Origin: Gambelia wislizenii
Lineage: Eukaryota > Chordata > Lepidosauria > Squamata > Crotaphytidae
Assembly: GCA_030847615.1 (NCBI GenBank)
Contig: JAUMIR010000004.1
Coordinates: forward strand, 230,496,501 to 230,560,500
Reading direction: 5' to 3'
DNA length: 64,000 bases
The notes below the pieces were generated by a model. The model had not been told where the DNA came from. It made no database searches and saw nothing but the letters and a program-made list of their open reading frames with translations. Below are positions 1 through 57,652 of the stretch, piece after piece. Numbering within the stretch: position 1 is the first letter of the stretch; each line of letters begins with the position of its first letter. The translations under genes were made by a program, and so were the position numbers.

Positions 1-379
1 ATGAGAGGGCCTTCTCAGCGGCTGCTCTAGAATTCTCTTCCACAGGTGGCTGGCCCGGACCCCTTTGTTTTCCTTCTGCTGGCCATTTTTATTTAAAGAA
101 GCATTTGGCAATTAATTGGTTGTGTGGAAGGTTCTTTTAATGGGCTATGTGTCCCATTTTTTTGTTTTGTTTTGTTTTAATGTTTTATACTGATTAAATT
201 AGTGCTGTTTTAATAGGAGAGGTAATTTGGTTTTTTTTTTTAAAAATACTTTTTAAAAATAATCATGGCCACACTTTTATCATCAAGTGTTTGTTTAGCT
301 GTCCTATGTTTGTATCTATGTTATATGCTGCCTTGGATCCGTTTCAGGAGAAAGTCAGGATATAAATAAAATAAAATAC
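1..379 (+). mobile_element. L2-like LINE, 3' end
   Basis: The stretch reads like the last part of a squamate L2-type LINE. It holds decayed coding sequence, then an A/T-rich 3' region with runs of GTTTTAAT, then the terminal phrase for 'gctgccttgg..ggagaaag' followed by (ATAAA) repeats at 355-379. Similar endings recur at 4500-4648, 10270-10335, 13435-13740, 16014-16092 and 44178-44310. The 5' part lies outside the window. Assignment to L2 rather than another CR1-group LINE is by eye. Confidence 0.55.
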
Positions 380-944
380 AGGAGATGAGTTCACTTAAGA
401 ATGTGACCCAAATAACATTCTTTGGTTGCCCTACTGCAACAAAAGCCTATGAGACTTTTAGAGGTTACAAAGTAGAAGGGTCTCCTTATGATAAAGATGT
501 GGAAAGCTGGCTGAGGAGACTAGTTATGTGTGTTTTGTTTTTATTTTTCTTGGATTTGTTTTGCTTGGAAATAGTTTGTTGTCATGACTTCCATGTACTT
601 AATAAGCCTAAGGAGAGAAGATGAGAACATGTCTGATTATAAATAAATAAAAAAGCTAGCCAGACAAATGGGATTCAGAACAGAGCAGGTGCTTAAATTC
701 CACAAAACAATGCCCGTGGAACAAACAGGATGCCCTCAGAACAGCCAGGATAATCTGGACAAACTGTTGACACAGTGAAAGGCAGGTGCTGCCTGAGTGC
801 TTTCACCATGCTAAGGTTTCTTCTTTTAGTTTTCCTTCTGTTTACAAGTATGAGATACAGGCACTTTTCTTCCCACAATACATGATTTTTCTCACTGATT
901 ATGCATAATAGTAGCAGTGAACTAATAAACTAATAAAGCAAGGG
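380..944. other. No recognised feature
   Basis: A/T-rich sequence with only short open frames (79 codons at most) that lack any family motif. I see no exon or repeat that I can name. Confidence 0.5.
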
Positions 945-1050
945 TAGGCAATTTGTGGTCTTCTGTCTGTTGTTGGATTGCAGTTCCCCTCACCCCTCAC
1001 CATTGGCTATGCTGGCTGCGGCTGATGGGACATCTAACCACATTTGCAGG
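945..1050. repeat. Eroded fold-back MITE (hAT-like)
   Basis: Degenerate copy of the widespread vertebrate short repeat whose arms read roughly 'tggactacaactcccat' on one side and its complement on the other, with 'ccattggctatgctggctg' in the centre. Similar relics occur at 10505-10640, 18680-18765, 28590-28700 and 44325-44400. No clean target duplication is visible. Confidence 0.45.
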
Positions 1051-1490
1051 GCCATTGTTCATTTAATGTAGGACTTCATCAGACAGTCCTCTTCGAAAAT
1101 TCTTTTGCCGGCATATTTAAACGGTTTTTCTTCTGACAAAAGAAACTTTCCTATCAAACCATATCTTTAGTAGCATCAATAGGCAGCCCCAGCATAAACA
1201 GCACGAACAGAGCTCTGTTCACTTCTGGGTTCAAGATCTTGCCAATTCTCATGAGAAGACATGAGTGCGGCAAATTTTAGAAATACACACAAATAAAGAC
1301 AGAAAACTTAGACACAAGCACAGAAACACACTTTAAAACTTAAAAGTGAACTGGGGAGGTTCATAAAAAGAGTGTCCCCTACCAGGCTGTTGCAATCTCA
1401 CCCGGAAGTGTTCTCTCATTGATGCTGTATTCCTGTGAGCACAATGGCGCAAAGTTTCGAACACCAGCGATGCTGGCACAAATGCGGAAT
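1051..1490. other. No recognised feature
   Basis: Unique-looking A/T-rich DNA. A short stretch at 1380-1490 (valine/alanine-free frames, moderate GC) may be older MITE sequence, but I could not place it. Confidence 0.4.
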
Positions 1491-1642
1491 GGGAGATCTA
1501 TTGACAGCTTGGCCCATCAATAAAAAGGAATGCCTTTTTGACAAGACATGATTGCAAAAGGACAATGTAGTCTGATATATGTGCCCTTTTGTGCTAATTA
1601 GGTGTCATTATGACACTATATTTGCTGCATCTGATAAAGTCC
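1491..1642 (+). mobile_element. Short fold-back MITE, TTA-target family (copy 1)
   Basis: Starts with GGGAGATCTATTGACAGC and ends with GCATCTGATAAAGTCC (1627-1642). The right end is the inverse of the GGAGATTATCAGATGC-type terminus seen throughout this window. The interior shares 'attgacagcttggcccatcaataaaaag' word for word (few mismatches) with the copy at 39071-39230. It is followed by TTA, the usual PIF/Harbinger-type 3-bp target. There is no coding capacity. Confidence 0.55.
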
Positions 1643-1651
1643 TTAGTCTTA

Positions 1652-1865
1652 GGACATTATCAGATGCATTAAAAGTGGTGTTACATGAACGCCAGGAGAT
1701 CGCTAAAGGGCTCTCTTTTCAGATGACGTTGTTCCCCCCCATCGTAGTTGACGCTACTAAAGGTAGGTCTGAAAAGTTTTGTTATTATGCCAGGACAGGG
1801 ACGGGATCGGGTGGGAGAGGAGATTGTGGGACAGGAACCCCTTTTTTCATTCCTGATAATCTCCG
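1652..1865. mobile_element. TTA-target fold-back MITE (copy 2)
   Basis: Begins GGACATTATCAGATGC directly after TTA (1649-1651) and ends CATTCCTGATAATCTCC. The two ends are inverted relatives of each other. It is placed head to tail with copy 1, separated only by TTA-GTC-TTA. The small open frames inside it are chance frames. Confidence 0.55.
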
Positions 1866-3281
1866 AAGTAGTCAAGGATAGAAACCATGCTCCCCATACA
1901 TAATTCTGGGTCTGATTAGCAAACTATTTATTTTCTTTATCTTGTTCAGCTATAGTCCAAGGTGGCGGAAGTAAAAAAAATAGGGCTAACATTTGTATTT
2001 CTTTTTTTAAAAATAATCCTGGGGAGAGAGAGAGAAAAAAAAAGCAAAAAAAGCACATATTCTCTCAGAATAGCTCTGTTCTTGAGTCAGGATCTTTACA
2101 ATAAAGCCAATTAAAACAACACTTCAGTTTAAAGATGATTAAATAGAGCATCAAAACACTCTTTCATTTGATATTTAAAATTAAATTAAAATCAAACTTT
2201 AAACATGTAATTATTGTCAAAAAATCAAGGTGCATATAATGTAAAAAAAATGCCTTAATAAGGCATTGGGCCATAAAGAGTTATGTTAAAAGAACGTTTC
2301 TGACTAATAATTCCACAGCGGAACAGCATTTATAGTAGAATAACACTTAACACCATTTGGGAAGAAAACCCCATTATTTTATTGTAAAGTTTGTGGTTTG
2401 CTAAAGAAATACAAAGATTTGGAACTTCAAGCTTCTTTTTATTGTGAGAGATTGTATTTTAATAATGCCCATTGTTAAAGAAGCCCATAGAAATAGCAGG
2501 CAATTAATTTCAAGGCTGATTTCCCCTCTGTTCCCCCATCTTTCTTCTATTTTGCCAATAAACATGTTTGAGCCAGGTGTTAATTACAAGCACCAATAAA
2601 GCCACAGAGCTGTTTTTGTTCTCTTGGGGGAAATGACTGGACTCAGCACTTTGCTGTTATGTTCATTTAACTTATTTACTGCACTTAAGTTTCCTCATCT
2701 GGTTTTCTATGTTCTGAAAATGGGTTGGGGGATGGAGGACTTGGTTGCCTAGGATATTTCAACCCCAGTGGGCAATCTCTTAGGTGTCCTCTCCGTTGAG
2801 CTGACTTTTTATCTGCAGATGTGATGGCTTCTTGCAAAATTATCCAGAACTACATTCTCCTGTGTTGTGTCCTCATAGAGAAGGCCTACAAGGGAGGTTA
2901 TGGGCATAGTTGTGTGCAGCCCCCATTTCCTTTTACTTTTTTGCCTGCCTATATTCTCTTCCTTCAGAAAGGACAGGTTGGCTTACAATGGGCTCCTATT
3001 AGAATTCCCCTCTCCATTGAAAGGATTGGTCCCCTCCGGTTTCAGCCAGGCACAGATCTGGTGTCTTGTACTGTACTTTTTCTTCAACATAATAAAGAAT
3101 TGGGTGCTCTTAGGCCACTTAATAGGCATTTCTGCTCAAACCCAAGATTTGAAAGTGGGCTCAGAAAGCAACATGCTGAGAATTACAGCTTTTATTCTTT
3201 GCTTTAAAACACATTTCTAGGCCATATTGATGTAAACGCCAGCTCAAAATTAGGCATGTGTGTGTATATGTGTACTGTATG
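1866..3281. other. No recognised gene
   Basis: A/T-rich DNA with homopolymer runs. Overlapping open frames of 128 and 106 codons at 2821-3220 have no recognisable domain, no splice-site context and no codon pattern that would favour a gene. Confidence 0.5.
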
Positions 3282-3888
3282 GAGATTTTCAAATGGGGCT
3301 AATATTGCGAGGAAGGCACAGAACAGGGTTGAGAAAGGGGCTCCTTTTCTGATGACATTGACTGCTCCTGTCCTGCTCCTGGGGTATTCTGTTCATGATG
3401 AAACTTTGTGAATAGAAGACCCTTTCCATGTCTGTCATGGAATCAGGGACGTGGGAAAAGGAGCCCTGTCCCTGTTCCGAGATGACAGGCACAGGGGAGG
3501 AGGTCTGGTCTGAGCACTTCCAGCCAAGAACAGTACATCCAGGTAAGCAGCACCCTTTCCCACCTCCTCCCTGGGTAACTTTTTTTTTTTAAAAAAATCT
3601 ATTTTTGCTTTTTATTTCTTGCTTTGACAGCTGGGGGGATTATTTTTGAATTTCCCTCCTGCTCATTCTCTCGTGAGAATGAGCAGAATTTCAGCCAGCT
3701 GGTTGTGAAGGCAGCCTTACGATGGCTGCATTTACAGCCAGCCGGCAAGGAGGGAGGGAGCCGTTCCTGCAGCAGAATGGAGGTAAGTGTGGGAACGTTT
3801 ACCTCCATTCCTTTGCAGGAACGGGAGAGGAAGTGGTGGGGCAGTAACAGGGCATTTTGGCCCCATCTGAAAATCTCCTGTGTGTGTG
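3282..3888. mobile_element. ~600-bp MITE with 19-bp terminal inverted repeats
   Basis: The left end GGAGATTTTCAAATGGGGC and the right end GCCCCATCTGAAAATCTCC are inverse with one mismatch. The interior contains nested palindromes: 3658-3685 has a 12-bp perfect stem with a 4-base loop, and 3763-3822 is a larger stem that includes 'ttacctccattc'. The ends resemble the GGAGATTATCAG family, so it is probably a longer relative. No transposase is encoded. Confidence 0.65.
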
Positions 3889-4005
3889 CTGGGGTTGGAG
3901 GTGGTGATTAGTAGGCATGGCCATAGTGCTCTGAACAATCCATAGCTATCAAAAGCAAAATAAGTAAATTCATGAAAATCTGTTTACCTGTATGTTTTGA
4001 TAAGT

Positions 4006-22149: not shown

Positions 22150-25094
22150 AAGGGCCATCCAGTCCAACCCCCTGCCATGCAGGAATGCACAATCAAAGCA
22201 TCCCTGACAGATGGCCATCCAGCCTCCAAGGAAGGACACCCCACCACGCTCCGAGGGAGTGCGTTCCACTGCCAAACAGCTCTTATTGTCAAAAAGTTCC
22301 TCCTAATGTTGAGGTGGAATCTCTGTTCCTGGAGCTTGCATCCATTGCTCCGTGTTCCAATCTCTGGAGCAGCAGAAAACAAGCTTGCTCCATCCTCAAT
22401 GTGACACCCCTTCAAATACTTAAACAGGGCTATCATATCGCCCCTCAACTGTCTTTTTTCCAGGCTAAACATACCCAGCTCCCTAAGTCTTTCCTCATAA
22501 GGCATGGTTTCCAAACCTTTCACCATTTTAGTCTCCCTCCTCTGGACATGCTCCAATTTGTCAATATCCTTTTTTAATTGTGGTGCCCAGAACTGGACAC
22601 AGTATTCTAGGTGAGGCCTGACCAAAGCAGAATAGAGTGGCACTATTACTTCCCTTGATCTAGACACTATACTTCTATTGATGCAGCCCAAAATCGCATT
22701 GGCTTTTTTAGCTGCCGCATCACACTGTTGACTCATGTTCAACTTGTGATCTACTAGGACTCCTAGATCCCTTTTGCATGTAGTATCATTCAGCCAGGTC
22801 TCCCCCATCCTATACCTATGCATTTCATTTTTCCACCCTAAGTGCAGTACCTTACATTTCTCCATGTTGAATTTCATTTTGTTAGCTTTGGCCCAGCTCT
22901 CCAGTCTATCCAGGTCATTTTGAATTTTGATCCTGTCCTCTAGGGTATTAGCTACTCCTCCTAATTTGGTATCATCTGCAAATTTGATAAGTATGCTCCT
23001 AATTCCATCATCCAAGTCATTGATAAAGATGTTGAATAGCACTGGGCCCAGGACAGAACCCTGTGGCACCCCACTGGTCGCATCTTTCTAAGATGAAGAG
23101 GAGCCACTGCAGAGCACCCTTTGGGTTCGGCCAGTCAACCAATTACAAATCCATTTAACAGTTAGCTTGTCTAGCCCACATTTTACAAGCTTGTTTGCAA
23201 GAATGTCATGGGGAACCTTGTCAAAGGCCTTACTGAAATCAAGGTATGCAATATCCACAGCGTTTCTTTCATCTACCAAGCTGGTAACTTTATATATAAA
23301 AAAGAGATCAGATTAGTCTGGCATGACTTGTTTCTCTGAAACCCATGTTGACTTTTTGTGATTATGGCAGTGCCTTCTAAATGTTCACAGAGTCTCTGTT
23401 TAATGATCTGCTCTAGAATCTTCCCTGGTATTGATGTCAGACTAACTGGACAATAATTGTTGGGATCCTCTCTTTTCCCCTTTTTGAAGATGGGGACGAC
23501 GTTTGCCCTCCTCCAGTCTGCTGGGACTTCTCCTGTTCTCCAAGAGTTCTCAAAGATTATTGTCAATGGCTCTGAGATTACATTTGCCAGTTCTTTTAAT
23601 TTTCTTGGATGTAGTTCATCTGGTCCTGGAGATTTAAATTCATTTAGATTAAGAAGGTAATCCTGTACTACCTCTTTGCTTATTCTGTGCTGGATTTCCC
23701 CTATTGTGTCCTCTGTCACATTATCCTCAGGTTGATCATCCTTTTCCTTTTCTGAAAACACTGAGACAAAGAAGGTGTTGAGTAATTCTGCCTTTTCTCT
23801 GTCTCCTGTTAGCATTTTGCCATCTTCTCTGCCTAGTGGCCCTACCGTTTGCTTCTTCATCCTTTTGCTGTGGACATACCCCAAAAAACCTTTTTTTATT
23901 GTTCTTAACCTCTCTAGCAAGCCTGAGCTCATTTTGCGCTTTAGCTTTTCTGACTTTACTCCTACACGTGTTCACTATCTGTTTGAATTCTTCTTTGGTG
24001 ATTTCCCCCTTTTTCCATTTCCTATACATGTTCCGTTTAAAACTTAGCTCAGTTGAAAGTTCTTTAGTCATCCATCCTGGTTTCTTGAGGCACCTCCCAT
24101 TTTTCTTCCTCAATGGTACTGTTTGAAATTGTGCCTTCAGTATCTCCCTTTTGAGAAAGTCCCATCCGTCTTGAAGTCCCTTCTCTTTTAGTATTCCTGA
24201 CCATAGGATCACCCCCAGTATTTCCCTGAGTTTATTGAAATCAGCTCTCCTAAAGTCAAGAATGCGTGTCTGACTATGCCTGGCTTCTCCTTTCCATTGT
24301 ATAACAAACTCCAGGAGAACATGATCACTCTCACCTAAGGATCCCACCCCTTGCACCCCATTAATCAAGTCATCCCTGTTGGTTAGGATCATATCTAAAA
24401 TAGCTGACCCCCTTGTTGCCTCTTCCACCTTTTGAACCATGAAATTGTCTTCCAGGCAATTAAGGAATTTGCCAGACCTTGAATTTTTGGTTGAATTAGA
24501 TTTCCAGCAAATATCAGGACAGCTGAAGTCACTCATCACTACTACATCTCCCCTTTCTGTGTGTGTGGTCATCTGTTCTAGAAAGGCATCATCCAATTCC
24601 TCCGTCTGATTTGGGGGTCTGTAGTAGAGTCCCATGATAACATCCTTGTTGTTTCCCTCCCCTTTAATTTTTATCCAGATGCTCTCCACCTGGCTTCCAG
24701 TATTGATGTCATGGATCTCTTCACTGGTGTAAATATCCCTGACATATAATGCTATTCCTCCTCCTTTCCTGTTTGGCCTGTTTTTCTTAAAAAGGTTATA
24801 CCCCTCTATTCCTACATTCCAATCATGCGACTCATCCCACAAGGTTTTAGTAATGCCTATTATATCATATTTACTTTGTAGTGCTAGGAGTTCAAGTTCA
24901 TCTTGCTTATTTCCCATGCTCTGTGCATTAGTGTAGAGACATCTAAGACCATGTGTTCCCTTTACTTGCTGCCTGTGCAAGTTTTTTTGCCTCCCACTGT
25001 TGGATCCTTCTGCTGTTTGCCTTGTTCCCTCTATGACAGTTTGACTATTTTTGCCAGCCCTCTTGCTTTCCAGAATACTGTCTCTCTCCCCCAT
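22150..25094 (-). pseudogene. CR1 ORF2: APE endonuclease and reverse transcriptase
   Basis: The endonuclease occupies the first ~250 codons from 25094: LRCLYTNAQS, then ITKTLWDESHDWN where the family has ITET (catalytic Glu changed to Lys), SDFSCPDICW where the family has GDFNYPDICW, and an intact SDHVLLEF. RT: LHPRKLKEL, YCPVSLTSIPGKILEQIIK, AYLDFSKAFDKVPHD (motif A), [13 protein letters not shown] (motif B), [12 protein letters not shown] (motif C) and the C-terminal LEYCVQFWAPQ. The frame shifts near 23,830 and 23,285 and has an in-frame TAG at ~23,086, where a Trp codon is expected. The C-terminus is altered by a small deletion near 22,200. It cannot be functional. Confidence 0.85.
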
Positions 25095-29276: not shown

Positions 29277-29815
29277 TTAATAAACCAAGACAATTGTCAG
29301 TTGAAGTAATCCAGTTGATAGAGGCTGCATAGGTTTACTTATAGAAACCTCTTGTATTGTGCAAGAGCAGTGGCCATCACATCTGCAGAAATGTCCAAAT
29401 ATTATTGTCTTTTCCAGTGAGTCATGTCTTCTCATGATGTGTCCAAAGTACGACAGTCTCAGTTTAGGCATCTTGGCTTCTAGGTAGAGTTCAGGTTTGA
29501 TTTGTTCTATGTAGAACCAATTTACTGTAGTTGTCTTTTTAGTAGTCCACAGTATCCGCAGCACTCTTCTCCAGCACCACATTTCAAATGAGTTGATTTT
29601 CTTCCTTTCAGCTTTCTTCACTGTCCAGCTTTCACAACCATACATAGAAATGGGAAGTACAATGGATGGCATGGGGCATCTTAACTTCAATATTCAATTA
29701 TACATCTTGACACTTCAGGATCTTATCGAGTTCGTTCATTGCTGCCCTTCCAAGGGACACAGCCATAAGCTTTTCTGATCTCACCTTGTTTTCTGACAGG
29801 CAGAGAATGGCTGTG
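29277..29815 (-). pseudogene. Bov-B (RTE) reverse transcriptase C-terminal fragment
   Basis: The minus frame encodes MYGCESWTVKKAERKKI, FEMWCWRRVLRILWT and SYFGHIMRRHDSLEKTIIFG, the well-known C-terminal signature of Bov-B. Upstream (29700-29815) the broken frame still gives LDKILK-like sequence. It has shifts and lacks the catalytic domain. Bov-B is the presumed driver of the Sauria SINEs, whose tails resemble its 3' end. Confidence 0.8.
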
Positions 29816-30894: not shown

Positions 30895-30905
30895 AGACTT
30901 AATAT
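30895..30905. repeat. Target-site duplication (left) of the full-length LINE
   Basis: AGACTTAATAT, identical to 34891-34901. Confidence 0.85.
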
Positions 30906-30932
30906 CTCTGGCTTTTCTTCGCAAACGAAGAT

Positions 30933-33900
30933 TCAGGAAGGACTCATCCCGCGCTTTCTGCAAGCGCGCTGATGACTAAAAAGGCCAATCCGAGATAAAC
31001 AAGTCCGGTTGCAAAAAGCACAGCAGAAGGTCTCCTTGGGTGATGTTTTTGGGTTGTGATTCTTTCTGCGTTGTCGTTTCTCTTCAAGACTTGTTCGTCG
31101 TGAGTTCTCAAATAAGGCTGCAGCATTGTGGATAGTGCGTCTCCATGCCTCCCGATGTGAGGCCAGGGCAGACCACTGTTGGTGATCAATTTGGCCAAGC
31201 CTGAGATGTTGTTTCAGGGAGTCTTTGTATCGCTTTTTTGGAGCGCCCCTCTTACGCTGACCCGTGGCGAGTTCACCGTAGAGTAGTATTTTTGGGAGGC
31301 GATGGTCCTCCATCCTAGAAACGTGCCCTGCCCAGCGCAGCTGTGTTCTCAATATCATGGCCTCAATGCTGGTGATCCCTGCTTGCTCAAGGACAGCAAC
31401 ATTCGTCACATAGTCAGTCCAGTGTATATTTAGGATTGTGCGTAGACAGCGCTGATGAAAGCGCTCGAGGAGTCGTAGGTGGTGGCGATAGGTGACCCAT
31501 GTTTCAGATCCATAAAGGAGGATAGACAGTACGATGGCTCTATACACACTGATTTTTGTGCTTTGCCTCAGGTGTTTATTGCTCCAGACTCTTTTGTGAA
31601 GTCTTCCAAATGCACTATATGCCTTTGCTAATCTGTGATCGATCTCTTTGTCAATCTTGGCATCTGAGGAGATGATGCTTCCCAGGTAGGTGAACTGCTG
31701 AACGGACTTGAGCACTGATTTGCTGACGGCAATGTGGGGATGGTGGTGTTCGTCCTGTGGTGCAGGCTGGTAAAGAACTTCTGTTTTCTTCAGGTTGACT
31801 TCTAGCCCAAACAGCTCTGCAGCTGTTGCAAAGCAGGATGTTAGGCGCTGCAGAGCTCCTTCTGTGTGGGCAACAAGGGCAGCATCATCGGCGAAGAGCA
31901 GCTCACGGACTAGATAGTTTAGAGTCTTAGTGTGAGCCCTCAGACGGCTTAAGTTAAACAAGCTACCATCAGTACGGTAGCGTATATAGATGCCGTCGTC
32001 TTCTTCAAGCTCTGCCATAGCCCTTTGGAGCATCATGCTAAAGAAGATTGTAAATAAAGTTGGTGCAAGAACACAACCTTGCTTCACTCCATTAGTTATT
32101 AGAAAGGGCTCTGAAAGAGCATCACCATATCTGACTTGACCACGCTGTCCCTCGTGTAGCAAGATAATCATTTTAAGGAATTTGGGGGGGCATCCTAGTC
32201 TTTCCAGGATCTGCCACAGACCTTTTCTACTTACAGTGTCAAAGGCTTTGGTGAGGTCGACAAATGTTACATAGAGACCCTTGTTCTGCTCCCTACATTT
32301 TTCTTGCAGTTGCCTAAGGGCAAATACCATGTCTGTAGTACTCCTATTGGCTCTGAAGCCACATTGGCTTTCAGGGAGAAGTTCTTCTGCAATAGCAGGA
32401 ACTAACCTGTTCAGGAGTATCCTTGCAAGGATTTTTCCAGCAATAGAGAGCAGTGTTATGCCTCGATAGTTTGAGCAGTCGGATTTTGCTCCTTTTTTCT
32501 TGTACAGGGTGATGATGACTGCATCTCGGAGGTCTGATGGCAGTTCCCCTTTTTCCCAGCAATTCACAAGGAATTCGTGGAATTTTTCGTGGAGTGCATG
32601 ACCTCCGTGTTTCCAAACTTCAGGTGGGATTCCATCAATCCCAGCTGCCTTGCCGTTTTTCATCTGCTGTATGGCCTTAAGGGTCTCTTCCAAAGTGGGA
32701 GCTATGTCCAATTCATTTTTCATTGGTTTTTGTATCATATCTTGGATAGCTGAGGCTTGGACTACTCGGTTGGCGCTAAAGAGACTTTGAAAATGTTCAG
32801 CCCAACGATTTAGGATGGAGGCTTTATCAGTAATTAATGTTTGACCATCTGTACTGTATAAGGAGCTTTGGACCTGATAAGTAGGTCCAAACACTGCTTT
32901 AAGAGCTTCATAAAATCCTCTATGATCACCCAGATCTGCACAGCGTTGTGTCTTTTCTGCTATACTGATCCACCACTTGTTCTGCATGTCTCGGAGTTTT
33001 TGTTGTAGTTTGCTACATGTGAGGCGGAAAGCTGCTTTTCTTACATGACAGGTTGGCTGGGCGAGGTATGCCTGGTGAGCAGCTCTCTTCCTTGCCAACA
33101 GTTCCTGGATCTCTTGGTTGTTTTCATCAAACCAGTCTTGATTTTTCTTGTGGGAGAAGCCAAGGGATTCTTCTGCAGACTGGAGGATACTGTTTTTGAT
33201 ATGTTGCCAAAGCACTGTAGGAGAAGGATCTGTAGGGTGGTCTTCAAGTTTCGTTTGTAGATTTGCCTGGAAGTTGTCTCTCATGGTAGCTTGTTGAAGA
33301 TTGTTGACTTGGAGTCTCTTCTTTAAGATGCCACCCCTCTTAGGTTTGAACTTAAGATGAAGATTTAGTTTACATCTGACAAGGCGATGATCTGTTTGGC
33401 ATTCTGCACTGGGCATCACTCGGGTATGACGGACATCACGAATGTCTCTCTGACGGACTAGAACGTAGTCAATGAGGTGCCAATGTTTGGATCGGGGATG
33501 CATCCAGGTTGTCTTCAAGCTATCTTTCTGCTGAAAGATTGTGTTTGTAATAGTCAGCTGTTGTTCTGCACAGAACTCTAGCAGGAGGCGTCCGTTATCA
33601 TTGCAATTTCCAACACCATGCTTGCCTAAGACACCTTTCCAGGCTTCGGAGTTCTTTCCTACTCTGGCGTTGAAGTCACCAAGGATAATAATTTTATCTT
33701 CTACAGGGACTTTTTGTATGAGTTGGCGTAGGTCTGTGTAGAATTTGTCTTTCTCTACAGGGTCAGCTTGCATAGTTGGGGCATATATACTAAAGAGAAC
33801 AACATGTGGGAGGCGTAAGGAAATAATGCGATCAGAGTGTCCTGTTGGCAAGGTTTCGAGTTTGGAGGCAATGGAGTTTTTAATCATAAAGCCTACTCCT

Positions 33901-34091
33901 GACAGATGTTTTTCGGTTTTGGGTTTGCCAGACCAGTAAAGTGTGTAGCCGGCGCCATGTTCTTTAAGGCTGCCTTCCTCATGGAAGCGAACTTCACTAA
34001 GAGCAGCGATGTCAATATTAAGCCGTGATAGTTCAAGGGCTATTAGGGCAGAACGACGCTCAGGCCGTCCACTATCTTCAGAGTCTTGCAT
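30933..34091 (-). CDS. LINE polyprotein: APE endonuclease, reverse transcriptase, C-terminal CCHC finger
   Basis: 1052 codons from the first ATG; the frame is open upstream to 34181, after a TGA at 34182-34184. The endonuclease's first conserved block (CWNIRT) lies just before that ATG, so the natural start is upstream or lost. Residues counted from the ATG: catalytic Glu in ALSEVRFHEEG (~35), ILGDFNARVG (~137), HLIDYVLV (~205) and TDHRLVR (~233). RT: NGKAAGIDGIPPEVW, YRGITLLSIAGKILARIL, CGFRANRSTTD, VTFVDLTKAFDTVSRKG (motif A), GVKQGCVLAPTLF (motif B) and LLFADDAALVAH (motif C), then LLYGSETWV and LRWAGHVSRMEDHRLPK. The C-terminus has CAFCNRTCLSRIGLFSHQRAC (C-x2-C-x12-H-x3-C, its last C shared with a basic tail). 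No stop or shift was found. It nicks target DNA and copies its own RNA there. Confidence 0.85.
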   Translation of the reverse strand: MQDSEDSGRPERRSALIALELSRLNIDIAALSEVRFHEEGSLKEHGAGYTLYWSGKPKTEKHLSGVGFMIKNSIASKLETLPTGHSDRIISLRLPHVVLFSIYAPTMQADPVEKDKFYTDLRQLIQKVPVEDKIIILGDFNARVGKNSEAWKGVLGKHGVGNCNDNGRLLLEFCAEQQLTITNTIFQQKDSLKTTWMHPRSKHWHLIDYVLVRQRDIRDVRHTRVMPSAECQTDHRLVRCKLNLHLKFKPKRGGILKKRLQVNNLQQATMRDNFQANLQTKLEDHPTDPSPTVLWQHIKNSILQSAEESLGFSHKKNQDWFDENNQEIQELLARKRAAHQAYLAQPTCHVRKAAFRLTCSKLQQKLRDMQNKWWISIAEKTQRCADLGDHRGFYEALKAVFGPTYQVQSSLYSTDGQTLITDKASILNRWAEHFQSLFSANRVVQASAIQDMIQKPMKNELDIAPTLEETLKAIQQMKNGKAAGIDGIPPEVWKHGGHALHEKFHEFLVNCWEKGELPSDLRDAVIITLYKKKGAKSDCSNYRGITLLSIAGKILARILLNRLVPAIAEELLPESQCGFRANRSTTDMVFALRQLQEKCREQNKGLYVTFVDLTKAFDTVSRKGLWQILERLGCPPKFLKMIILLHEGQRGQVRYGDALSEPFLITNGVKQGCVLAPTLFTIFFSMMLQRAMAELEEDDGIYIRYRTDGSLFNLSRLRAHTKTLNYLVRELLFADDAALVAHTEGALQRLTSCFATAAELFGLEVNLKKTEVLYQPAPQDEHHHPHIAVSKSVLKSVQQFTYLGSIISSDAKIDKEIDHRLAKAYSAFGRLHKRVWSNKHLRQSTKISVYRAIVLSILLYGSETWVTYRHHLRLLERFHQRCLRTILNIHWTDYVTNVAVLEQAGITSIEAMILRTQLRWAGHVSRMEDHRLPKILLYGELATGQRKRGAPKKRYKDSLKQHLRLGQIDHQQWSALASHREAWRRTIHNAAALFENSRRTSLEEKRQRRKNHNPKTSPKETFCCAFCNRTCLSRIGLFSHQRACRKRGMSPS

Positions 34092-34632
34092 GGTTCTGAT
34101 GTTCCAGCATGCAAGTGTCAGTTTATTTACACCTTTGGAGGCCGGTGTGTGCCTTTGTTTCTTTGCCTTGGTTTGACCGCATCAGAAGATTCCCGTTGGC
34201 CGCGGCTAGCCAACCAGGTAGTTGGGGATGAGCTTTCTTTAGGCCACCTTTTCTAGGCCCCTCTCCATGTGGAGCAAGCAGTGCTCTCCTTAAAAAAAGG
34301 CTGCTTGGTCGTTCAGAATGCTGCCGAACAAGACTGTCATCTCCCGGGTCAGGCTTGAGCGACCAATGTCCTGAACCGCCTGCATGCAGGGTTGGGGCTG
34401 CGGCTTCCAGTGCATCTTTACACCTGCCGGTTTCGTCCCTCGCCAGTCGCTACAGGGCTTTTTTGGAAATGGATTTGTCCTTCGAGCCTGTGCAATGGAT
34501 TTTTCTGGTGGAGCGCAGCGTGCACAGAACTGGCCTCACCCTTTAAACCAGAGATTCATCTGCCGTGGCCTTGCAAGCATGGACGTGGCAGTGAGGTCCT
34601 CGGGCCGTAGGTTTGATTAGAGTTTCCTTCTC

Positions 34633-34866
34633 TTAGATGGTTGACCTTACAGGGTTGGACGAGCACCATCTGCCCGGGTTTGGGATTGGAGTTTTCCTTC
34701 TCCTAGGACGGTTGCCACAAGGCTGGAGAGCCCATCCTGCCCTTTGACGCTCTTTGTCAGACCCTTCGGTTTTGACCTGTCTGGCATGGGAGACCCTACC
34801 AGTGGCTATTATGCCACCGCCAGCATAGCTCAAAACATCATTAGGGTACGCAAGCCTCTCTCCCAC
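34633..34866 (-). other. Short leader reading frame in the LINE 5' region
   Basis: A 77-codon frame opening GERLAYPNDVLSYAGGG in the leader of the full-length copy, where the first codon is GTG. In the derivative at 56619-57098 the same position is ATG, and the frame is kept for about 47 codons before a TAG. Conservation in two copies is suggestive, but the region may be kept for promoter or RNA structure and not for protein. Confidence 0.3.
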
Positions 34867-34890
34867 GACAAGGGGGCGTCAATGGAGAGG

Positions 34891-34901
34891 AGACTTAATA
34901 T
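34891..34901. repeat. Target-site duplication (right) of the full-length LINE
   Basis: AGACTTAATAT, identical to 30895-30905. Confidence 0.85.
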
Positions 34902-37915: not shown

Positions 37916-38208
37916 TCTCTCTCTGGCTTTTCTTTGCAAATGAAGATTCAGAAAGGACTCATCCCGCGCTTTCTGCAAGCGCGCTGATGAGTAAAAAGGC
38001 CAATCCGAGATAAACAAGTCCGGTTGCAGAAAGCACAGCAGAAGGTCTCATTGGGTGATGTTTCTGGGTTGTGATTCTTTCTGCGTTGTCGTTTCTCTTC
38101 AAGACTCGTTTGGCGTGAGTTCTCAAATAAGGCTGCAGCATTGTGGATAGTGCATCTCCATGCCTCCCGATGTGAGGCCAGAGCAGAGCATTGTTGGTGA
38201 TCACTAAG
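37916..38208 (-). mobile_element. 5'-truncated copy of the RTE-like LINE (3' end)
   Basis: Matches 30906-31185 of the full-length copy with few differences. It encodes the end of the polyprotein including CAFCNRTCLSRIGLF and a C-terminal tail. The 3' end reads GCCAGAGAGAGATAA on the minus strand, i.e. a short GAGA tail. It diverges from the full-length copy after 'ttggtgatca'. No target duplication is evident. Confidence 0.8.
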
Positions 38209-56371: not shown

Positions 56372-57652
56372 GTAGAATCTCCTCAGATACCAAGATTGAC
56401 AAAGAGATCGATCACAGATTAGCAAAGGCACATAGTGCATTTGGAAGACTTTACAAAAGAGTCTGGAGTAATAAACACCTGAGACAAAACACAAAAATCA
56501 CTGTGTATAGAGCCATTGTACTGTCTATTCTCTTGTATGCGTCTGAAACATGGGTCACCTATCGCCACCACTTACGACTCCTCGAACACTTTCATCAGCG
56601 CTGTATACGCACAATCCTCTCCATTGACGCCCCCTTGTCATGGGAGAGAGGCTTGCGTACCCTAATGATGTTTTGAGCTATGCTGGCAGTGGCATAATAG
56701 CCACCGGTAGGGTCTCCCATGCCAGACAGGTCAAAACCGAAGGGTCTGACAAAGAGCATCAAAGGGCAGGATGGGTTCTCTAGCCTTATGGCAACCATCC
56801 TAGGAGAAGGAAAACTCTAATCCCAAACCCGGGCAGATAGTGCTCGTCCAACCCTGTAAGGTCAACCATCTAAGAGAAGGAAACTCTAATCAAACCTACG
56901 GCCCGAGGACCTCACTGCTACCGTCCATGCTTGCAAGGCCAGCAGATGAACCTTTGGTTTAAAGGGTGAGGCCAGTTCTGTGCATGCTGCGCTCCACCAG
57001 ACAAATCCATTGCACAGGCTCAAAGGACAAATCCAATTCCAAAAGGGCGTGGGATGGGTCCTTCCTGAATCTTCATTTGCAAAGAGAAGCCAGAGAGATA
57101 CACACAATCCTAAATATACACTGGACTGACTATGTGATGAATGTTGCTGTCCTTGAGCAAGCAGGGATCACCAGCATTGAGGCCATGATATTGAGAACAC
57201 AGCTGCGCTGGGCAGGGCATGTTTCTAGGATGGAGGACCATTGCCTCCCAAATATAGTACTCTACGGTGAACTGCCACGGGTCAGCGTAAGAGGGGCACT
57301 CCAAAAAAGCAATACAAGGACTCCCTGAAACAAGATCTCAGGCTCGGCCAAATTGATCACCAACAATGGTCCGCCCTGGCCTCACATCAGGAGGCATGGA
57401 GACACACTATCCACAATGCTGCAGCCTTATTTGAGAACTCACGCCAAACAAGTCTTGAAGAGAAACGACAACACAGAAAGAATCACAACCCGGAAACATC
57501 ACCCAAGGAGACCTTCTGCTGTGCTTTCTGCAACCAGACTTGTTTATCTCGGATTGGCCTTTTTAGTCATCAGCGCGCTTGCAGTAAGCGCGGGATGAGT
57601 CCTTCCTGAATCTTTGTGAAGAAAAGCCAGAGAGAGAGAGAGAGAGAGAAAC
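56372..57652 (+). mobile_element. 5'-truncated copy of the RTE-like LINE, split by a derivative
   Basis: 56372-56618 matches the RT thumb region of the full-length LINE (DKEIDHRLAKAH, TWVTYRHHLRLLE), and 57099-57626 continues from NIHWTDYVMNVAVLEQAGIT through RWAGHVSRMEDH to the CCHC finger and the end of the ORF. It ends in a (GA)n tail (57627-57652). Small deletions and shifts exist (for example near 57,300). The 480 bp between the two parts is a separate insertion. Confidence 0.85.
56619..57098 (+). mobile_element. 480-bp non-autonomous LINE derivative nested in the LINE copy
   Basis: Flanked by TACGCACAATCCT (56606-56618) and TACACACAATCCT (57099-57111). Positions 56619-57048 correspond to the 5' leader (inverse of 34890 to ~34461), joined directly to the last ~50 bp of the LINE (inverse of ~30955 to 30906). 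It therefore keeps both ends and lacks the ORF, and carries its own target duplication. This is the plan expected of an internally deleted, trans-mobilised element. Confidence 0.85.

Follow-up and report, generated by a model that had tools for sequence, protein, structure and literature searches.

We describe here a full-length LINE (long interspersed nuclear element) of RTE type in the lizard Gambelia wislizenii, found on contig JAUMIR010000004.1 in a window of 64,000 nt (positions 230,496,501-230,560,500, forward strand); the window is the whole stretch of DNA that was analysed, and feature coordinates refer to it. We are highly confident that the element is a very recently inserted, autonomous LINE of the RTE clade, that it is related to AviRTE and that it was massively amplified in the lizard lineage. 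As a recently inserted autonomous RTE it is an ordinary kind of object; what sets it apart is its kinship with AviRTE, in a lizard that carries many intact copies. AviRTE itself is well known as a LINE that has passed between vertebrates and parasites. The intact lizard relatives offer a comparison for the AviRTE enzyme, its target choice and its 3'-end recognition, and one lizard genome is shown to have undergone a recent expansion, with about 87,000 3' ends counted. The element may also help to show the origin of the AviRTE of birds and worms, a question that becomes testable across pleurodont genomes.

The genome itself shows how the element is built, which signature it leaves on insertion, how its copies are truncated and that many intact ones are nearly identical. 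An 11-bp target site duplication (AGACTTAATAT) is found in identical form on both sides of the element (Table 1). In the genome searched, which is the assembly holding the window (2.47 Gb, 68 contigs), there are at least 37 full-length matches, the window copy included (37 of 3880 first-look candidates scored). The 36 other copies were compared with 200-base flanks (longer in one case); 35 of them span element positions 1-3985 and the remaining one is 1 base short. Because the 3985-bp unit is common end to end with these 36 copies, the boundaries are real and no chance direct repeat, as a preliminary description of the window had proposed from the two identical 11-bp copies. The same description had pointed to an uninterrupted frame of endonuclease, reverse transcriptase (RT) and finger with all catalytic residues. 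Pfam supports this for the first two domains, and a 26-sequence alignment supports it for the residues. The open reading frame (ORF) passes the Pfam cut-offs for endonuclease (PF03372, PF14529) and RVT_1 (PF00078), while Pfam finger matches at its C-terminus all stay below cut-off. Its sequence relatives in the PDB are the LINE-1 ORF2 protein (E 2.9e-19) and R2 proteins (10 sequences, E up to 0.001). In the alignment, window ORF included, E33, D139, N141, D234, H235, D612, D735, D736, C1024 and C1027 are invariant; in the finger motif H1040 is nearly invariant and C1044 is listed as neither. D139 and N141 lie in GDFN, D234 and H235 in TDH, D735 and D736 in FADD of the window ORF; the residues themselves were taken from the alignment. 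In line with the RTE clade, the element has one ORF with an apurinic-type endonuclease and an RT and no ORF1 (the remaining sense-strand open stretches do not exceed 108 codons), and it ends in a short 3' tandem repeat in place of poly(A). Tails in most of the copies seen consist of AG repeats that vary in length; a few copies (e.g. L056) have A-rich tails.

The target duplication could be resolved in 30 of the 37 full-length copies and not in the other 7; a first pass with other settings had resolved 31, one of them doubtful, with 24 of the 31 at 10-12 bp. The base before the duplicated site (-1) is T in 28 of 30 copies and the first duplicated base (0) is A in 24. Further upstream, positions -13 and -12 are exclusively A or T (T in 23/30 and 19/30, respectively), and a TTT lies between -16 and -7 in 17 of 30 copies compared with 263 of 1147 background tiles. 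Target sites of this kind resemble the Tn-TA signature described for RTE LINEs by Nakatsuka and Ohshima (PMC13295347). It seems plausible that RNA would start from the fixed 5' end and be translated from the single ORF, and that the endonuclease would nick the strand facing the T|A step, with a T-rich stretch about 12-13 nt away. The RT would then use this nick to prime on its own RNA, at the 3' end with its short hairpin and AG repeat. Most inserts are 5'-truncated, and in complete ones the target duplications span about 8-15 bp. That the family is transcribed, enzymatically active and moving at present is what we infer from these features.

Thirty full-length copies, including that of the window, show a mean of 5.29 mismatches per 3984 bp (0.13%), and the remaining seven have 29-76 differences from the majority. 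Of the 30 near-identical copies 28 keep the 1052-amino-acid frame, as do two of the seven older copies, and 17 distinct intact proteins occur. At the rate of 0.0013 substitutions per site per million years (My) used in PMC13295347, the mean distance separating the 30 copies from the majority is equivalent to about 0.6 My, a rough date because the rate is borrowed. Compared with the majority, the window copy has four substitutions and an additional T at column 598, and this T looks ancestral because seven other copies, six of them older, carry it. The fact that 30 copies are at least 99.8% identical might also be explained by assembly or segmental-duplication artefacts instead of separate insertions. 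However, these copies are spread over ten contigs, several of them chromosome-sized, and their flanks, target duplication sequences and AG-tail lengths differ; we rejected this explanation as highly improbable. That the LINE is complete, young, intact and RTE-like, as was first described, is borne out by the near-identical intact copies, the domains and the target signature.

Exact 21-mers count 28,735 3' ends, 4,552 5' ends and 3,100 mid-ORF sites (reversed-pattern control 0). With up to 3 mismatches the 3' 21-mer has 87,225 matches (control 17), a count that would include any short interspersed nuclear element (SINE) sharing the same tail. A neighbouring CpG-free 22-mer gives 58,131 exact matches, 80,156 at up to 1 mismatch and 86,861 at up to 3 (controls 0, 0 and 13); this count stops at three mismatches, and more diverged copies fall outside it. 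Exact matches make up 67% of it and 92% lie within 1 mismatch, hence the many old diverged copies that the preliminary description had named as an argument against its reading are not seen among the matches counted. The fractions with 0, 1 and 2-3 mismatches are 0.669, 0.254 and 0.077, compared with 0.269 and 0.061 for the last two under a single Poisson. The fitted mean is 1.8% per site, about 14 My at the same borrowed rate (PMC13295347), with the caveat that a functional 3' end may stay conserved between successive master copies. Thirteen longer fragments, from 20 loci picked by exact tail, have 0.6-5.1% non-CpG divergence. On these counts the family is both enormous and young; any surplus of old copies among the counted matches is slight at most. 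Copies also seem enriched near one chromosome end: on contig C1, 100 listed exact 3'-end 21-mers fall between 0.15 and 3.18 Mb, i.e. in about 3 Mb (about 33 per Mb), compared with a genome mean of about 11.7 per Mb.

The link to AviRTE includes noncoding sequence. We mapped the ten AviRTE primers printed in PMC4844689 on the lizard element, and nine are collinear with it, matching at 147 of 186 nt (79%). The matches in the 5' untranslated region (5'UTR) are 17/21 and 17/19 nt, and the span from int-F to int-R is 125 bp compared with a published amplicon of 126 bp (PMC4844689). Primers 1F and 4F merely equal the best of 20 shuffles, and for this reason it is the primer order and spacing that carry weight; the best matches anywhere of all ten primers sum to 159/205 nt. 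The layout of the element is also similar, with 5'UTR, ORF and 3'UTR of 799, 3159 and 27 nt compared with about 800 nt, 3.2 kb and 40 nt in AviRTE (PMC4844689), and both have derivatives that join the 5'UTR to the 3' end. One difference is the host, not a bird or filarial nematode but an iguanian lizard, which RAG1 places most likely among the pleurodonts outside Sceloporus and Anolis. Furthermore, the lizard has intact copies, while Suh et al. describe full-length AviRTE copies as all broken in the assemblies they sampled, and its 3' end carries an AG repeat and is unmatched by primer 4R. Identity to AviRTE is 79%, a value for the primer sites only, compared with 83-99% reported within AviRTE (PMC4844689). 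Third codon positions at the primer sites are identical at 20 of 39, which would suggest, if they are neutral, a deep split from AviRTE and not one as recent as the waves that Suh et al. date at 17-25 My (PMC4844689). The AviRTE 3'-end pattern has 330 matches in the lizard genome at up to 2 mismatches (control 0); none of the 100 listed places is an exact match, and most of those listed are one repeat variant containing GAAGCCATGCCATGATGTT. In the literature pairing AviRTE with squamates (mostly titles and abstracts, with few subscription papers) we found no report of an AviRTE relative in a lizard, nor does one appear in the portions consulted of PMC6542046, PMC8872380 and PMC13295347.

Among the best 120 of 1427 whole-ORF matches (7984 candidates scored) are database contigs up to 75% full-length, Branchiostoma (72%), Cirrhinus (69%), shrimps and urchins. 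When the first 400 residues were used, the top two matches by score and many others among the best 120 of 1525 were annotated LINE fragments of suboscine birds with 69-82% identity. In the endonuclease tree set (38 sequences) identity to the lizard element is 80-82% for Manacus, 80% for Pitangus, 78% for Lepidothrix and 74% (73.7%) for Willisornis; the non-suboscine sequences reach 76% or less, with 57-72% for 17 named non-avian rows and 46-47% for four more; Varanus is at 46%. Bird-like values occur outside this set in partial rows, namely Labeo P0290 (78% over 42% of the query), P0313 (79% over 54%) and P0111 (78% over 58%). The split that holds the lizard and suboscine sequences has an ultrafast bootstrap (UFBoot) of 100 in the endonuclease tree and in the RT tree (residues 401-830; Willisornis P0351, with 88 residues, was dropped as too short). 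In the latter, Pitangus and Manacus stand together (92) and the lizard adjoins them. RTE-like proteins of Branchiostoma, fish, molluscs, shrimps and sea urchins share the endonuclease-RT domain order and fall outside this group (UFBoot 100). Using constraints picked after the tree had been seen, an approximately unbiased (AU) test rejects the lizard with the Branchiostoma set (p 5.9e-5), with Varanus (4.7e-76) and outside the group of birds plus P0014 (4.3e-6); birds alone without the lizard are not rejected (p 0.41). We infer that the suboscine proteins are AviRTE, from their hosts and from Pitangus P0285, which fully matches the primer 3R peptide HTKTLN, as does none of 128 other matches. 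Viral and genome contig collections, searched with the ORF protein and an alignment, gave no relatives.

Some results weigh against an AviRTE-related member of the RTE clade. In the RT part, Manacus P0242 reaches 72.9% identity across 129 residues, and several non-bird rows score higher (up to 77.4%). The assignment to the RTE clade comes from ORF layout, target signature and tail. Rfam gave no known ribozyme or RNA family in the element above gathering score (three sub-threshold matches), and the 3' hairpin folds no better than shuffles (z -0.56). Lastly, the 3' primer 4R has a chance-level match at the wrong place (12/19; shuffles up to 14), and because it could not be mapped there, the 3' end that the RT is expected to recognise has diverged from AviRTE. 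The fold of the 5' 191 nt is likewise not above shuffles.

Among the other known RTE systems, BovB is alike in belonging to the RTE clade and in its Tn-TA insertion signature (PMC13295347), and differs by a (CAA)n tail in most listed squamate BovB, compared with (AG)n here. BovB was compared by description, the only squamate RTE-type protein in the comparison being that of Varanus (46% of amino acids), and AviRTE is described as just distantly related to BovB (PMC4844689). Anolis RTE-1 (RTE-1_AC), also set beside the window LINE by description only, is like it a recently active non-BovB RTE of a pleurodont lizard (PMC5389967); unlike it, RTE-1_AC_1 is reported to group with a sea urchin RTE in PMC13295347, the only paper found in which AviRTE and Anolis both appear. 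Two sea snake elements, Proto2-Snek and RTE-Snek (PMC7846101), were considered by their description. The preliminary description had taken the element for something other than Bov-B, the RTE normally dominant in squamates, and had suggested a separate active lineage or a late horizontal arrival. The element is far from the Varanus protein. Since Anolis RTE-1 is already known, an active non-BovB lineage is not new as such, and with about 87,000 3' ends in the genome the element is not solitary.

Whether the lineage descended within squamates or arrived from outside has to be weighed from the same data. An old sauropsid RTE, passed on vertically in squamates, renewed by turnover and perhaps identical to Anolis RTE-1, with the AviRTE of birds as a separate offshoot, has close to an even chance in our judgement. 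The known activity of Anolis RTE-1 argues for it, as do the related RTEs that Suh et al. note in crocodilians and turtles (PMC4844689), the low third-position identity to AviRTE and the 2-3-mismatch class of the 22-mer, which lies slightly above Poisson; the counts, taken up to three mismatches, are otherwise near a single young Poisson, and this, like the reported placement of RTE-1_AC_1, speaks against old vertical descent. Horizontal arrival in the lizard, to which we would give somewhat less than even odds, would mean that the lineage entered this iguanian lineage within about the last tens of My, out of the same pool (parasite, bird or unsampled animal) from which AviRTE reached Neotropical birds. 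The best-scoring named relatives are in Neotropical suboscines and not in other squamates, trees joining the lizard to the Branchiostoma set or to Varanus were rejected, the copy landscape is young, and Suh et al. (2016), after BLASTN of GenBank genomes, report AviRTE as exclusive to birds and filarial nematodes (PMC4844689). Moreover, endonuclease identity to Manacus exceeds that of the host gene RAG1 (a single genome match, 92% to Sceloporus undulatus and 91% to Anolis sagrei) to birds, which is 75-77% for six near-full-length named rows. However, one partial bird RAG1 row reaches 87% over 63% of the query, and neither the Willisornis endonuclease nor the Manacus RT part lies above RAG1 identity. 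The third codon positions again speak for a deep split if neutral, and repeat masking may hide squamate proteins of this kind from databases. Furthermore, turnover by itself can make LINE families of squamates look young. As a tentative proposal, which we hold to be less likely than not, a living and intact sister lineage of AviRTE might exist in New World iguanians, and squamates or a shared parasite might belong to the horizontal-transfer network through which AviRTE reached Neotropical birds and filarial nematodes.

Table 1. Features of the LINE and of further family insertions in the window.
Feature	Position	Strand	Basis or remark
Target site duplication, element 3' side	30895..30905	.	AGACTTAATAT on + strand
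Target site duplication, element 5' side	34891..34901	.	AGACTTAATAT copy
Full-length RTE-type LINE, AviRTE-related, 3985 bp	30906..34890	-	5' end 34890, 3' end 30906; shared unit and duplication
5'UTR, 799 nt	34092..34890	-	contains noncoding AviRTE primer sites int-F and int-R
Single ORF, 1052 amino acids and stop	30933..34091	-	uninterrupted frame, 3159 nt
Apurinic-type endonuclease domain, residues 8-238	33378..34070	-	Pfam; invariant E33, D139, N141, D234, H235
Reverse transcriptase domain, residues 532-806, FADD	31674..32498	-	Pfam, PDB sequence relatives, alignment
C-terminal zinc-finger-like motif C-x2-C-x12-H-x3-C, residues 1024-1044	30960..31022	-	sequence and alignment
3'UTR, 27 nt, no poly(A)	30906..30932	-	hairpin TCTTCG-TTTG-CGAAGA (30916-30931), then AAAGCC, AG repeat
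5'-truncated older family copy, element 3703-3985, 95%	37921..38203	-	no target site duplication of at least 7 bp found
Older 5'-truncated family copy, element 3218-3985, about 93-95%, interrupted by nested derivative	56377..57632	+	alignment
Nested internally deleted derivative, element 1-430 joined to 3937-3985	56616..57095	+	duplicated family sequence flanks

The preliminary description had held everything else of LINE type in the window to be broken. Fragments were indeed found, but it had omitted two insertions of the same family (37921-38203 and 56377-57632), which are 90-95% identical to the window LINE over the aligned pieces. The derivative nested in the second is flanked by a duplication of 9 bp (exact) or 13 bp (with one mismatch, by eye); as the undisturbed sequence is known from the family, it shows the site before and after insertion. 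A large non-autonomous family built on its 430|3937 junction was considered and rejected, with 48 genome matches at up to 3 mismatches and 53 in the reversed control; the junction is rare, and only five places with it look real (up to 2 mismatches, also composite loci). Deletions with other junctions occur as well. Among the first 100 listed 5' ends, 78 have no exact mid site at the right spacing, and 12 of these were examined: four continue to the end of the 2.1 kb examined, three are 5'-plus-3' deletions with differing junctions, two match as 5' pieces only, and three are rearranged in other ways or lie close to an inverted 3' piece. Derivatives of 5'UTR plus 3' end at L075, L080, L081 and L045-L052 use several junctions and bring to mind the two-part tails of AviRTE-driven SINEs. 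Joins of this sort have precedents in the AviRTE-driven SINEs with a 5'UTR-plus-3'UTR tail (Suh et al., PMC4844689) and in Bov-A2 and RTE1-N1_LA, listed in a review as RTE 5'-end derivatives (PMC3747384). Inverted 3' pieces of the family lie in or near copies L078, L084 and L061 (the last by eye), as expected from twin priming or nearby insertions. Finally, two minus-strand segments of the window (23324-23851 and 29385-29666) have weak tblastn similarity to the ORF (29-31% of amino acids) and are probably remnants of other LINE types.

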